From: Patescibacteria group bacterium
Lineage (GTDB): Bacteria; Patescibacteriota; Minisyncoccia; Phycocordibacterales; UBA5272
DNA: 35,412 nucleotides
Direction: 5' to 3'
NCBI GenBank assembly: GCA_030916895.1
Contig: JAUPVR010000006.1
Span: forward strand, 1-35,412
How positions within the stretch are numbered: the stretch's first letter is position 1; each line of letters starts with the position of its first letter. Below the pieces are notes generated by a model. It saw only the letters and a list, made by a program, of their open reading frames with translations. It did not search any database and was not told the origin of the DNA. The translations under genes were made by a program, and so were the position numbers. Shown piece by piece: positions 6,183-27,178 of this stretch.

Positions 6183-9100
6183 ATGGCAGATACACATAAC
6201 AAACCGAAAACAATACACGACAAGGAAACTGAAGTACTTGCGTTTTGGGAGCACAACAAGATTTTTGAAAAATCTCTCGAAACACCGGGCGGGAATGAAC
6301 CCTCTGGTAATTTCAGTTTCTATGATGGCCCGCCGTTTGCGACTGGTCTTCCGCACATGGGGCATATTTTGGCAGGCACCATTAAAGATGCGATCCCTCG
6401 TTATCAAACAATGAAAGGAAACCATGTTAGGCGTATGTGGGGTTGGGATTGCCATGGACTTCCAGTTGAAAACTTGATTGAAAAGAAGCTTGGTCTCAAG
6501 TCGAAAAAAGATATTGAGGAGTATGGTATTGATAAATTTAATGATGCCGCATACAAGAGCGTGCTTACCTACGATGAGGAATGGAAAAAAGTAATTCCAC
6601 GTCTTGGTCGTTTTGTTGATATGGAGCATCCGTATAAGACGATGGATGCAACGTATACAGAAAGCATTTGGTGGTCGTGGAAGACACTGTATGAAAAAGG
6701 GCTGGCATATGAAGGAAGCAAGATGATGCATATTTGTCCCCGCTGTGAGACGACACTTGCACAGAGTGAGGTGGGAATGAACTACGAAGACGTGACGGAT
6801 ATTTCAGTAACAGCAAAATTTGAACTTGCAGGTGAACCTGGGACATTTGTACTTGCGTGGACAACAACACCGTGGACGCTTCCAGGGAATGTTGCGCTTG
6901 CGGTAAAGGAGGATGCACACTATGTAAAAGTCTCAATTGAAGGAATGGATGGTTTATATATTCTTGCTGAAGAAAGAATTGCGGAAATATTAAAAGATAT
7001 GAGGCATGAAGTAAAAGAAACGTTTATGGGTAAGAAACTTCTAGGCCTTACCTACAAGCCACTTTTTCCATATTTTGTTAATGCAGAACTTGAACACAAA
7101 GAAAATATTTGGAAAATTTGGCACGCAGATTTTATAACACTTGATACGGGTACTGGTATTGCTCATGAAGCGCCAGCGTTTGGGCAGGAAGATATGGATT
7201 TGGCAAAAGCAAATAATATTCCTGTTATCAAGCACATTAAGATGGATGGAACCTTCACTAAGGAGGTGACAGATTTTGCAGGGATGAAAGTAAAGACTGT
7301 TGGGGACACACAGTCAGCTGACGTTGCAATCATCAAATGGCTCGCGCATGCAGGACTCTTGTTTGAAAAGCATAAAATTATTCACTCCTATCCACTTTGT
7401 TGGCGATGTAAAACACCACTCTTAAATTATGCAACGTCGAGCTGGTTTGTTGATGTGCCAAAAATAAAAGAAAAACTTCTTTCTGAAAACAGGGAAATTG
7501 GATGGACACCAGAACACATCCGTGATGGGCGTTTCGGTAAGTGGTTAGAGGGGGCGCGTGAATGGGCGGTTTCTCGTGCGAGGTATTGGGGGGCACCTCT
7601 TCCTGTTTGGAAGTGTGACGAATGCGAAGAGGTGAGGATGATTGGTGGCTTGAAAGAATTATCCGTTGGAAAAAGGGCAAAGAATACCTACTATGTGATG
7701 CGCCACGGTCAGTCAGAAAGTAATGTTGCGGGAATTATTGATTGTGATGGTGATCATACAAATGGACTCACTGCACTTGGTAAAGAACAGGCACAAAAAG
7801 CAGGGGAAACGCTTAAGGATAAGAAGATTGATTTCATTGTCTGTTCGCCATTTTTGCGAACCAAGATGACTGCAGAAGTTGTTGCAAAAGAATTGGGCGG
7901 AATTGAGATTATTGAAGACGAGAGACTTAAGGAATTTAATTTAGGAGTTTACGATAAGCGAAAAATTGAAGACTACCTAAAAGAAGTTGGTGAACTCCGT
8001 TATCTAAAATTAGACACTCGCGTAGAGGGTGGGGAGACACATCGTGAAATGATGAATCGAGCAATTAGTGCGTGGATGGATTTAGAGAAGAAGTATGAAG
8101 GAAAAAATATTTTGATTGTGACCCATGGTGGACCCGCACGCATGCTTTTGGTTGGCACACACTTAATTACTGAAGAAGAATTAATTGATGATGAGAGTAA
8201 AGATGATACTGTTTTTTATCCAAAAAATGCCGAAGTGAGAGAACTTTCTCCACGCATTGTTCCGCGCGATGAAACGGGGGCAGTTAATCTTCATCGACCA
8301 TACATTGATGAAGCTACAATTACATGTGTGTGTGGAAAAGAAATGAAGAGAATTCCTGATGTGTTTGATTGTTGGTATGAATCAGGTGCCATGCCATTTG
8401 CTTCTATTCACTACCCATTTGAAAACAAGGAACTTTTTGATAAGAGTTATCCAGCAGATTTTATCGCTGAAGGACTTGATCAGACGAGGGGATGGTTTTA
8501 TTCGCTTATTAACTTAGGGGTCGGGTTGTTCGGTAAGGCACCATACAAGCATGTGATTGTAAACGGTCTTGTACTCGCTGAATCTGGAAAGAAGCTCTCT
8601 AAGAGTGAGTCAAATTATACGGATCCAGTTGAATTGGTTGATAGGTATGGCGCGGACGCCGTTCGTTACCTCTTGCTATCATCACCGGTTGTCAAAAGTG
8701 AAAGTATCCTTTTTTCCGATAAAGGAGTTGAGGAGATTTACAAGAAACTTATTTCTCGTCTTGAAAATGTCATAAGTTTGTATGAGATGAACAAAGAAGA
8801 AGGTATTAGTGCAAATGAGACGTCAAAAGATTTGCTTGATAGATGGATTGTTTCGCGTATACACGATGTTATTGAGCAAACAACCCGCGGGTATGATACA
8901 TATGAACTCGATAGCGCGACGCGACCACTCGAGAAATTCATTGATGATTTGTCTGTGTGGTACGTACGTAGGTCACGCTCTCGCTTAAAAGGAGAAACAG
9001 GGGAAGAAGATAAGAGGCGCGCGCTTGAAACTCTCTCATATGTACTTATTAATCTTTCTCAGGTAATGGCACCGAGTATGCCCTTTCTTGCTGAACGTGT

Positions 9101-9656
9101 ATATCAAGCGGTAAAAGAAACCAGTAAGGATTCTCGCGAAAGTGTGCACCTGTGTACATGGCCAAAAGGAGGACGTGTCGACACTCACATAAGCCAGGAG
9201 ATGGAAGCCGTGCGTGAAGTGGTCTCACTTGCCCTTATGGTACGCATGAAAGAAAATATTAATGTTCGTCAACCTCTTTCTCTCCTTAAGACAAATATTG
9301 TGATTACCAAGGAATACTATGACCTCATTTTAGATGAAGTAAATGTAAAGAAGGTAGAGGTAGATAAGGATCTGAACGAGAAAATTTATCTTGATACAAC
9401 GCTGACCGATGAACTTGTACGCGAAGGAGATGTACGTAACCTTATGCGTGCAATTCAAGATACACGCAAAGCCATGAACCTTTCTCCAAAAGAAGGTGTT
9501 ACGCTTACACTTCAAGCCACACAAGACTTAGGAATACTTGAAGCGCTTCAAAAAATCTGTAACGTTAGATCTGTTGACATCACCAAAGAAGAGCAAGAAC
9601 AAGAAGTGATGCTTTCGTTTGGGCGTGCAACATTCTCACTCCGTGTTATTTCATAG
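6183..9656 (+). CDS. ileS: Isoleucine-tRNA ligase with inserted histidine-phosphatase (phosphoglycerate mutase-like) domain
   Basis: PPFATGLPHMGHIL (HIGH), WGWDCHGLPVE, KKLSKSESNYTDP (KMSKS) and DLSVWYVRRSRSRLKG; internal YVMRHGQSESN...VTHGGPARMLL. Confidence 0.96.
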   Translation: MADTHNKPKTIHDKETEVLAFWEHNKIFEKSLETPGGNEPSGNFSFYDGPPFATGLPHMGHILAGTIKDAIPRYQTMKGNHVRRMWGWDCHGLPVENLIEKKLGLKSKKDIEEYGIDKFNDAAYKSVLTYDEEWKKVIPRLGRFVDMEHPYKTMDATYTESIWWSWKTLYEKGLAYEGSKMMHICPRCETTLAQSEVGMNYEDVTDISVTAKFELAGEPGTFVLAWTTTPWTLPGNVALAVKEDAHYVKVSIEGMDGLYILAEERIAEILKDMRHEVKETFMGKKLLGLTYKPLFPYFVNAELEHKENIWKIWHADFITLDTGTGIAHEAPAFGQEDMDLAKANNIPVIKHIKMDGTFTKEVTDFAGMKVKTVGDTQSADVAIIKWLAHAGLLFEKHKIIHSYPLCWRCKTPLLNYATSSWFVDVPKIKEKLLSENREIGWTPEHIRDGRFGKWLEGAREWAVSRARYWGAPLPVWKCDECEEVRMIGGLKELSVGKRAKNTYYVMRHGQSESNVAGIIDCDGDHTNGLTALGKEQAQKAGETLKDKKIDFIVCSPFLRTKMTAEVVAKELGGIEIIEDERLKEFNLGVYDKRKIEDYLKEVGELRYLKLDTRVEGGETHREMMNRAISAWMDLEKKYEGKNILIVTHGGPARMLLVGTHLITEEELIDDESKDDTVFYPKNAEVRELSPRIVPRDETGAVNLHRPYIDEATITCVCGKEMKRIPDVFDCWYESGAMPFASIHYPFENKELFDKSYPADFIAEGLDQTRGWFYSLINLGVGLFGKAPYKHVIVNGLVLAESGKKLSKSESNYTDPVELVDRYGADAVRYLLLSSPVVKSESILFSDKGVEEIYKKLISRLENVISLYEMNKEEGISANETSKDLLDRWIVSRIHDVIEQTTRGYDTYELDSATRPLEKFIDDLSVWYVRRSRSRLKGETGEEDKRRALETLSYVLINLSQVMAPSMPFLAERVYQAVKETSKDSRESVHLCTWPKGGRVDTHISQEMEAVREVVSLALMVRMKENINVRQPLSLLKTNIVITKEYYDLILDEVNVKKVEVDKDLNEKIYLDTTLTDELVREGDVRNLMRAIQDTRKAMNLSPKEGVTLTLQATQDLGILEALQKICNVRSVDITKEEQEQEVMLSFGRATFSLRVIS

Positions 9657-24054: not shown

Positions 24055-24080
24055 CATAGTCACTTCGTTTCTTATTTTTG

Positions 24081-24468
24081 TGGAGATGGGCGGAATCGAA
24101 CCGCCGTGTATTGTCAGGATAACCGCGTGTCTACTGTGCTTAGTTTGCTTCATTTGTAGACAGATACGATAGAAACAAACGAAAGCCGTATCTGCTTAGC
24201 ATCATTACTTCAATTCTCCTATGATGCGGGAAGAGAATCTACACTCATTAGTATATTGCCCAATTACTTCCAAAGAGTATAGAAGTAGTGGACACCAGAT
24301 TGGCTATTTAAGCGAATGCTGGAACAAGTCCGTTTGCCATATATGGTGAACGGATTGCTGTTGCGGATTTATTTGCAACGTGTTTGCAGATGTGTTTTAC
24401 AAGATCACCTACATGCTTGGCACAGCAACACGGTAATCGATGACAATATCGAAACCAATGTCACCCCC
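24081..24468 (-). ncRNA. ssrA: Transfer-messenger RNA (tmRNA)
   Basis: Minus strand 5' GGGGGTGACATTGGTTTCGA and 3' GGTTCGATTCCGCCCATCTCCA pair as acceptor and T-arm; tag ORF inside; adjacent to smpB. Confidence 0.95.
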
Positions 24469-24901: not shown

Positions 24902-24949
24902 GGACTTATTCTAGCATGTGGTAGAATGCCTACATATAGACGAAATACC

Positions 24950-26845
24950 ATGAAGAAAGAAAACGAAAATAAAAAAATAAAGAAGGAAACAACACTCCAA
25001 AGAGTGGGGGGATTTTCTCAGCAGTTTGTTGGTACAATCCTCATCTTCATCGCGCTTTCTTGGGGGTATTCAATCATGACTAGTAAAGAAAAAGTACCAA
25101 CGGTTTCCCTTTCTGAACTCGCACAACTTGTGAACGCTCGTGAGATTCTAAAGATTGATGTTGAGGGTGATAAGCTCGTTGCTACGAAGAAAGATGAAAC
25201 GAAGGTAGAAAGTAAGAAGGAGCCATCGGCAAGCATTATTGAAACCCTTAAGGACTACGGGGCATCTCCTGTTTCTCTTGCATCAACAACAATTACTATT
25301 AAAGAAGATAGTGGTGTTATGGTGTGGCTTAAGATTCTTCCAATAATTATTCCACTCCTTTTCTTAGCGCTTATGATTTGGTGGTTGGCTCGCGGTATTA
25401 AGGGTGCGAATATGCAGGCGTTTTCATTTGGCCAATCTCGCGCAAAAATTATTCACCCAGATGACGGCAAACAAAAGGTGCTCTTCAAAGATATTGCTGG
25501 TGCGAAAGAGGCAAAAGAAGAACTCTCTGAAATTGTAGAATTCTTGCGCAGTCCGAAAAAGTTTTTGGATATTGGTGCGGTGATTCCAAAAGGCGTACTT
25601 TTGATGGGAGCACCGGGAACTGGAAAGACCATGCTTGCTCGTGCGGTAGCAGGAGAAGCGGGGGTTCCATTCTTTCACCTCTCTGGTTCTGAGTTTGAGG
25701 AAATGTTTGTCGGTGTTGGTGCGTCACGTGTGAGAGATTTATTTGATATGGCGAAAAAATCAGCACCATCAATTATTTTTATTGATGAAATTGACGCTGT
25801 GGGGCGCGCCCGTTCGGCGTCTATGGGAGGACAAGGTGAAGCACGAGAACAAACACTTAATCAAATCTTGGTGGAGATGGATGGATTTGAGCAAACGGAA
25901 AACGTGATTGTTATGGCGGCGACAAACAGGCCAGATGTGCTTGACGTGGCACTTCTTCGTCCAGGACGCTTTGATCGTCGCGTGACACTTGATCTTCCTG
26001 ATAGGAATGATCGCGAGGCAATTTTAGGTATCCATGCTAAAGGAAAACCACTTGCTGAAGATGTAAACCTTAAAACAGTCGCAGAAAGAACCCCTGGATT
26101 TTCAGGAGCTGATTTGTATAGTCTCATGAATGAAAGTGCAATTTTGGCAGCTCGTGAAGAGCGAAAGAAAGTTGCGCAGTTTGATTTGATTCGCGCAATT
26201 GAAAAGGTGATGCTTGGTCCTGAGCGTAAAAGTCACGTGCTTTCACTTCATGAGAAGAAAATTACTGCATACCATGAAGCCGGACACGCGCTCGTTGCGT
26301 CATGTTTACCGGATGCTGACCCAGTACACAAGATTTCAATTATTGCGCGCGGAAGGGCGGGTGGGTACACACTTAAACTTCCACTTGATGAACGAAGGTT
26401 GATGAGTAAGTCAATGTTCTTAGATGACATCGCGATGTCACTTGGTGGCTACGTTGCCGAAAAAGAAACGTTTGGGGATATTACCACTGGTCCATCAAAC
26501 GATCTTCAGGTAGCAACTGCAATGGCACGCGCCATGGTGACCAAGTACGGCATGAGTACGCTTGGGCCAATTGCGCTTGAGTCTGATGGTATGCCGGTGT
26601 ATGGTCGTGGTGTGTATGGCAAGGAGTATAGCGAGTCGTTTGGGCAAAAGATTGATGATGAGGTGAAGCGTATTATGGATGAAGCGTGGAACCGCGCACG
26701 AAAAATAATTATCGATAAGCGTGATGCACTTATGGCGATTGCTGAAGAACTTATCCGCGTTGAAAATATTGAACGCGATGAGTTTGAGAAACTTCTCCTC
26801 CTTCACGGTATACAACCAAAGAAAAAGGAAGAGATTCTTGTCTAA
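24950..26845 (+). CDS. ftsH: ATP-dependent zinc metalloprotease FtsH
   Basis: [74 protein letters not shown]. Confidence 0.98.
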
Positions 26846-26897: not shown

Positions 26898-26933
26898 GCA
26901 TCCGTAGCTCAGTTGGTAGAGCCGTCGTCTTAT
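26898..26933 (+). pseudogene. 5' half of a tRNA-Ile(UAU) copy (tRNA positions 1-36)
   Basis: 36 nt identical to 26964-26999 of the full tRNA, ending at the anticodon TAT. Confidence 0.8.
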
Positions 26934-26963
26934 TTTAGGCAACGAGGACATTGTCACTAAAGT

Positions 26964-27036
26964 GCATCCGTAGCTCAGTTGGTAGAGCCGTCGTCTTATA
27001 CACGACTGGTCCCTGGTTCGAGTCCAGGCGGATGCA
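26964..27036 (+). tRNA. tRNA-Ile, anticodon UAU
   Basis: Acceptor GCATCCG/CGGATGC, D-arm GCTC..GAGC, anticodon stem GTCGT/ACGAC with loop CTTATAC (U33, anticodon TAT), T-arm CCTGG TTCGAGT CCAGG, discriminator A. Confidence 0.93.
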
Positions 27037-27077
27037 CTTTGGGGATAATGGACGAGTGAACCTAAAATACGATTTAG

Positions 27078-27118
27078 TATACACGACTGGTCACAGGTTC
27101 CTGGTCCAGGCGGATGCA
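27078..27118 (+). pseudogene. 3' half of a tRNA-Ile(UAU) copy with altered T-arm
   Basis: TATACACGACTGGTC...CCAGGCGGATGCA resembles the full tRNA from the anticodon onward; T-arm is ACAGGTTCCTGGTCCAGG instead of CCTGGTTCGAGTCCAGG. Confidence 0.8.
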
Positions 27119-27178
27119 CACCAATAGACTGTGTTGTTAGGTTTCTCAACACTGAGTTTTTGTTATACTATAGGAACC

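Follow-up and report, generated by a model that had tools for sequence, protein, structure and literature searches.

A tRNA-Ile gene nested within a split copy of itself in a Patescibacteria genome, and its counterparts across the order

Short hairpins such as the Rickettsia palindromic elements and REP sequences are dispersed through genomes, and palindromic repeats are also found inserted in RNA genes. Several other systems interrupt tRNA genes. In the tRNA-dependent lysogeny of actinobacteriophages, attB cores overlap the anticodon loop and the tRNA gene is left split, with an intact cognate tRNA carried inside the inserted DNA (PMC10865867). Islander integrative islands also target tRNA genes and have their ends marked by displaced tRNA fragments, the target being restored at one end and a single fragment left (PMC4383910). 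The introns, split genes and permuted genes of archaeal and algal tRNAs interrupt tRNA loops and place tRNA fragments near intact genes, and are served by a dedicated splicing endonuclease (PMC4033280, PMC3293823). Insertion into tRNA genes is also known from Dada transposons, eukaryotic, protein-coding DNA transposons that target small RNA genes (PMC8869645).

The locus described here, read directly from the sequence of a Patescibacteria genome, consists of an intact tRNA-Ile(UAU) gene nested within a second tRNA-Ile(UAU) copy that is split at its anticodon. It shares with tRNA-dependent lysogeny a split host tRNA gene whose insert contains an intact cognate tRNA; the phage system, however, involves a phage-sized element with an integrase, and has neither a conserved RNA hairpin around the tRNA nor serial nesting. 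Unlike the Islander arrangement, both halves flank a full tRNA and the DNA between them is gene-free. The splicing endonuclease of the archaeal and algal systems is absent from all 23 nested genomes tested, and those systems hold no intact tRNA of the same kind within the interruption. The hairpins differ from REP and the Rickettsia elements in that they occupy the loops of tRNA genes and are accompanied there by a complete tRNA copy. A search of the open-access literature found no counterpart for the nesting of a tRNA gene within its own split copy, recurring in about 20 families with an RNA helix preserved through compensatory changes. Such loci are overlooked by routine tRNA scans, which report only the inner gene. 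They would provide a natural series (plain, nested, decayed and triply nested) for studying how insertions into tRNA genes are tolerated and how these genes are replaced, as well as material for learning how pre-tRNA processing handles long leader-trailer stems, and they point to mobile non-coding hairpins as a scarcely studied layer of these otherwise highly reduced genomes.

Anatomy of the locus

The source genome comprises 660 kb over 37 contigs, of which contig 35 is the window, the whole stretch of 35,412 nucleotides analysed here. The 5' half of the outer tRNA-Ile(UAU) (26898..26933, +; GCATCCGTAGCTCAGTTGGTAGAGCCGTCGTCTTAT) equals nucleotides 1-36 of the inner tRNA, its last letters being the anticodon TAT. 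It is followed by an insert of 144 nt (26934-27077) that includes the inner, intact tRNA-Ile(UAU) at 26964..27036 (+), which ARAGORN places at 26964-27037 with anticodon TAT and which scores 68.6 bits against Rfam RF00005. The outer 3' half (27078..27118, +) starts with TAT at 27078-27080 and ends at the discriminator A, 27118. The inner gene has the complete cloverleaf and consensus loops of a functional tRNA according to both programs, whereas the outer T-arm is altered (GGTCACAGGTTCCTGGTCCAGG versus GGTCCCTGGTTCGAGTCCAGG), with two T-stem pairs broken and the TTCRA loop absent, so that the outer copy in the window lacks the complete T-arm of a functional tRNA. The split outer copy, the insert and the intact inner copy had all been noted in a preliminary description of this DNA, and direct reading places them at the same positions; its prediction that a tRNA scan would report the inner gene only was borne out as well, since this is the sole tRNA call at the locus by ARAGORN and Rfam and the outer halves go unreported. 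Chance resemblance of the halves is ruled out by their local-alignment scores, 72 for the 5' half and 57 for the 3' half, against shuffle maxima of 20 and 22. The genomes compared are MAGs, and misassembly is rejected as unlikely because the architecture is found with divergent sequence in four separately deposited assemblies (G006, G010, G013 and G004) and in other families.

On either side of the inner gene, the arms of the insert pair with each other. The base helix joins UAUUUUAGG (26931..26939, +) to CCUAAAAUA (27061..27069, +) and is followed by a tandem G.A internal loop, formed by AACGAGGA (26941..26948, +) and GACGAGUG (27051..27058, +). Above it, a middle helix (CAUUGUC/GAUAAUG) and an extension helix (CUAAAGU/ACUUUGG), with 5' strands in 26949..26963 and 3' strands in 27036..27050 (both +), run straight into the inner acceptor stem, the discriminator A at 27036 pairing with U-1. 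These helices are supported by both the predicted fold and covariation. A small hairpin, UAC-GAUUUA-GUA (27068..27079, +), can be seen in the sequence immediately 5' of the outer 3' half, and its counterpart in relatives is UAUAUC..GAUAUA. The TAT present on both sides of the insert had earlier been likened to a target-site duplication, a proposal that is not convincing, as both copies are explicable by pairing: in relatives the 5' TAT lies within the base helix and the 3' TAT usually within the small hairpin (TATATC..GATATA; TAC-GATTTA-GTA in the window). For the full 221 nt, the predicted fold contains the outer acceptor stem and D arm, the long helix and the inner cloverleaf, at -92.6 kcal/mol (z = -5.7), and the antisense strand folds less stably (-79.7 kcal/mol).

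Conservation, recurrence and decay

Nested loci follow two layouts built on one frame, in which the outer anticodon loop holds the G.A hairpin and then the small hairpin. In type 1, the layout seen in the window, the tip of the G.A hairpin carries the inner tRNA, with gaps of about 30 and 42 nt; in type 2 the tip of the small second hairpin carries it, with gaps of about 85 and 18 nt. Among four sequences from the genus, 13 of 28 arm pairs are changed on both sides, a count equalled by none of 500 shuffles. A covariance model built from the genus gave 93.8 bits to a locus of another family (L048), compared with 68-70 bits for plain tRNA-Ile genes of that locus's own family, and once the locus had been added 96.5% of cells were paired and 32 of 46 pairs were double-changed. 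In a set of 23 loci of type 1 or similar, 95.2% of cells are paired and double changes occur in all 24 arm pairs (0/500 shuffles), the signal being specific to the register; the GA letters of the tandem G.A motif are kept in 21 to 23 of these loci (22-23 for the 5' strand, 21 for the 3' strand). In the same set the arms contain 42 G-U pairs and 10 A-C mismatches (p 9e-6), an excess which implies that they are kept as sense-strand RNA or as the same strand in single-stranded DNA. Covariation above shuffles, register specificity and sense-strand G-U bias are together what a conserved structured RNA displays, and from these patterns the insert arms look maintained as RNA. Since G-U outweighs A-C and the G.A mismatches have been retained, the arms are unlikely to be a DNA palindrome devoid of an RNA role.

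All 16 genomes of the genus possess tRNA-Ile(UAU). Both outer halves are found in G013 and G006, and in G010 and G004 the outer parts have decayed. The 5' half is gone from G001, which retains the 3' arm and 3' half, and in G003 the paired arms are the only remnant. The upstream flank of the single 5' end of G001 is common to the outer copy of G013, the expected outcome of recombination between two 5' halves, and these two genomes also have an altered outer T-arm related to that in the window. Where the gene is nested, a promoter-like TATAGTT box precedes the outer copy, which, with the flank, marks the outer 5' end as the native one. In G005, G007 and G015 a different element follows a plain gene, and the gene is plain in the others (7 of the 16 genomes). 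Unrelated tandem tRNA remnants in place of nesting, the finding that had been named in advance as fatal to the nested reading, did not occur in the sister genomes, and the search of related genomes that had been recommended at the same time recovered the split-tRNA arrangement both there and in other families.

A second covariance model was searched over 397 genomes of the order and gave strong matches in 113, from which 90 loci were examined. Of 54 tRNA-Ile(UAU) loci selected by the model, the outer 5' half was significant in 34, the 3' half in 37 and both in 31, these last spanning 20 families of the order. A further sample that was not chosen by the model, with about one genome per family picked by anticodon-arm pattern (n = 47), had both outer halves in 8 and at least one in 16; a leader-trailer stem extension of at least 6 bp was present in 13 genes of this sample, 7 of them fully nested, and almost all others had 0-2 bp. 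tRNA-Ile(GAU) can be nested likewise (e.g., L126), and one tRNA-Thr (L118) has a 3' half downstream. A pattern scan of 384 genomes at class level found the tRNA-Ile(UAU) form only in the window's own genome, which indicates that outside the order the nested form is rare or different in sequence. Two exact patterns scanned against viral contigs gave no matches, leaving a phage vector without support. Judged by its recurrence in about 20 families, the nested arrangement is a recurrent architecture and not an accident.

The outer copies behave differently from the arms. Their stems contain 15 G-U pairs and 30 A-C mismatches (Fisher p 3e-6 against the arms), and this absence of a G-U excess fits decay. 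Many outer stems are broken and outer D and T loops are often replaced by hairpins. The outer copies look, from their sequences, like decaying genes, as had been suspected for the window and as the graded decay within the genus also supports, though some are intact or nearly so (L085, L103, L106 and L147) and could still function or be very recent. Between inner and outer copies there are 35 double-changed pairs in acceptor stems and 18 in T stems, which probably mostly mean two distinct, once-functional tRNAs. In 25 of the 31 loci the inner tRNA and its own outer copy are each other's closest relatives, a pattern that local copying or gene conversion fits better than foreign replacement. In family f62 the inner and outer copies are swapped between two loci, X lying inside Y in L115 and Y inside X in L134. 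Elsewhere (L046 and L047), one or two truncated remnants of tRNA 5' halves stand ahead of tRNA-Phe.

Serial nesting and related elements

Nesting can be repeated. One genome (G297, locus L219) has a triply nested tRNA-Ile(UAU), in which the outermost copy bears D- and T-loop hairpins, the halves of the middle copy are intact and the inner gene is intact. Three G.A-hairpin units lie in tandem in G222, and in G046 the intact tRNA is beside the interrupted copy, not inside it. The G.A hairpin also occurs away from any tRNA, ahead of a protein gene, in G065, and in the genus g58 it qualifies as a dispersed repeat, with several copies at unrelated loci near tRNA-Pro, tRNA-Trp and protein genes; the window's genome has one copy of the insert. 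In G318 (L223), beyond the outer 5' half and the G.A hairpin, the intact tRNA-Ile has the opposite orientation, as though it had been turned around between the inverted repeats of its own acceptor stem.

Loops other than the anticodon loop are occupied as well. At two loci from the GTDB scan (L044, 6252-6458; L045, 3972-4184), tRNA-Ile(UAU) is nested in a T loop instead; the outer tRNA-Ile copy that holds it has a paired acceptor stem and CCA, and a terminator-like hairpin comes next. A multi-copy structured element directly 3' of many tRNA genes (Ile, Val, Thr, Pro, Arg, Ser, Gln and others; L057-L076, e.g., L009 1583-1741) was observed in 12 of 16 genus genomes and is absent from the window's own; it has no Rfam match. 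Its acceptor strand is that of its neighbour, a hairpin stands where the D and anticodon arms would be, and the T loop holds a conserved three-way-junction core. The element is read here as a second copy of the neighbouring tRNA, one with insertions in its loops, and no longer as tailored inverted repeats. In other families (L121, L130, L135 and L151), outer copies of tRNA-Ile(GAU) have a three-way-junction core of the same type inserted in their D arm, which suggests that it may be an order-wide element.

Origin of the nested genes and their surroundings

The explanation that we favour, with a probability of roughly 0.55, is that hairpins recurrently insert into tRNA loops and that the intact tRNA copy they contain takes over from the outer one, which decays. 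Palindromic, non-coding, hairpin-forming insertions would repeatedly have entered the loops of tRNA genes in this order, the hairpins presumably being mobile by transposition. In the window, the anticodon loop of the native tRNA-Ile(UAU) would have received the tandem-G.A hairpin and the small second hairpin, with an intact tRNA-Ile(UAU) copy sitting at the tip of the former. Ordinary tRNA maturation at both ends would release the inner tRNA from a single transcript, to serve as the working tRNA for AUA codons; it is probably essential, as these account for 57 of the 6542 codons in the window's genes. The split outer copy would yield no tRNA and erode, and the helix may be kept because it serves the one working pre-tRNA as its leader-trailer stem. 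The explanation builds on the anatomy of the locus, its recurrence in about 20 families, the strand-polar covariation, the intact inner gene, the decay of the outer copy, serial nesting and the dispersed hairpins; counting against it, several outer copies are intact or nearly so, the inner copy is mostly closest to its own outer copy, no mobilising enzyme was identified, viral contigs matched neither of two exact patterns, and the window's genome has the insert in a single copy. The preliminary description offered three options, namely a tiny element that targets tRNA genes and brings a replacement tRNA, an origin by nested duplication and deletion, and a structured RNA; it is a combination of them that finds support. 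The covariation of the insert upholds the structured RNA. The tiny element gains from recurrence at the same site in many families and from dispersal of the G.A hairpin in one other genus, but the inner tRNA is generally a local copy and not clearly foreign.

Four rival explanations were weighed. The scar of an integrative element, which entered at an anticodon-loop attachment site with a rescue tRNA and was later reduced to that tRNA and its flanks, would reproduce the topology of tRNA-dependent lysogeny (an element with a complete cognate tRNA between a 5' half and a 3' half; PMC10865867), and attachment sites are known in anticodon loops. Such a scar is quite improbable, since integrase and element genes are absent between the halves, where gaps of about 15-185 nt are too short for a gene, and since the inserts are uniformly short, share one conserved hairpin, nest serially, have dispersed hairpin copies and hold an inner tRNA usually closest to its own outer copy. 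That same kinship, the exchange of inner and outer copies between L115 and L134 and the inverted inner tRNA of G318 would suit local nested duplication and deletion through hairpin-driven template switching, involving neither an element nor a function; this account is hardly likely, since the tandem G.A motif and the layout of the helices recur in 20 families, with covariation that shows RNA polarity, and since the hairpin exists outside tRNA genes.

Two further rivals assign a role to the outer copy. The entire nested molecule, outer cloverleaf included, might be a functional RNA selected as a unit, serving tRNA-Ile as a cradle for processing or as a regulatory device. Its outer acceptor and T stems are often intact yet unlike the inner ones (the 35 and 18 double-changed pairs above), predicted folds agree and the tandem G.A motif is conserved; we nevertheless consider selection as a unit rather unlikely, in view of the missing G-U excess and many breaks in the outer stems, the frequent replacement of outer D and T loops by hairpins, and the 7 of 16 genus genomes that manage with a plain gene. 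It is highly improbable that the outer copy is a spliced, intron-containing tRNA whose intron happens to encode a second tRNA. The anticodon loop is a usual intron site, and the halves of L085, L103 and L147 would join into a perfect tRNA that could function; in the window, however, the broken T-arm precludes this, the anticodon-loop exon letters vary, and an intact tRNA is kept at every nested locus examined. The archaeal-type endonuclease (PF01974) was found in none of 23 nested genomes and in four archaeal controls. No group I or group II intron, and hence no group I catalytic core, was recognised in Rfam scans with E limits of 1 or 0.1; the insert minus its inner tRNA is about 70 nt.

The favoured explanation, recurrent entry of hairpins into tRNA loops, can be extended into a broader scheme that we offer tentatively, as something short of probable. 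In Patescibacteria, a class of minimal non-coding hairpin elements, namely the G.A hairpin found in anticodon loops and the three-way-junction core found in T and D loops, might colonise tRNA loops and persist through rescue of the host by an intact copy of the invaded tRNA, nested in the element or adjacent to it; repeated rounds might build Russian-doll genes, and the hairpins might move as folded RNA or single-stranded DNA.

The nested tRNA has ftsH (24926-26845) on one side and, on the other, an ORF without a Pfam match and then recG. Directly after the outer 3' half, window positions 27131-27161 hold a GTGTTG/CAACAC hairpin with a T run, a possible terminator whose 10-nt loop lies outside the limits of the terminator scanner. 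A tmRNA gene (24078-24468, -; Rfam RF00023, 106.8 bits), unreported by ARAGORN, is located 2.4 kb upstream of the nested tRNA. The isoleucyl-tRNA synthetase (TIGR00392) is also encoded in the window (6183-9656, +) and contains an internal histidine-phosphatase domain (PF00300, residues 504-657, E 7e-37).
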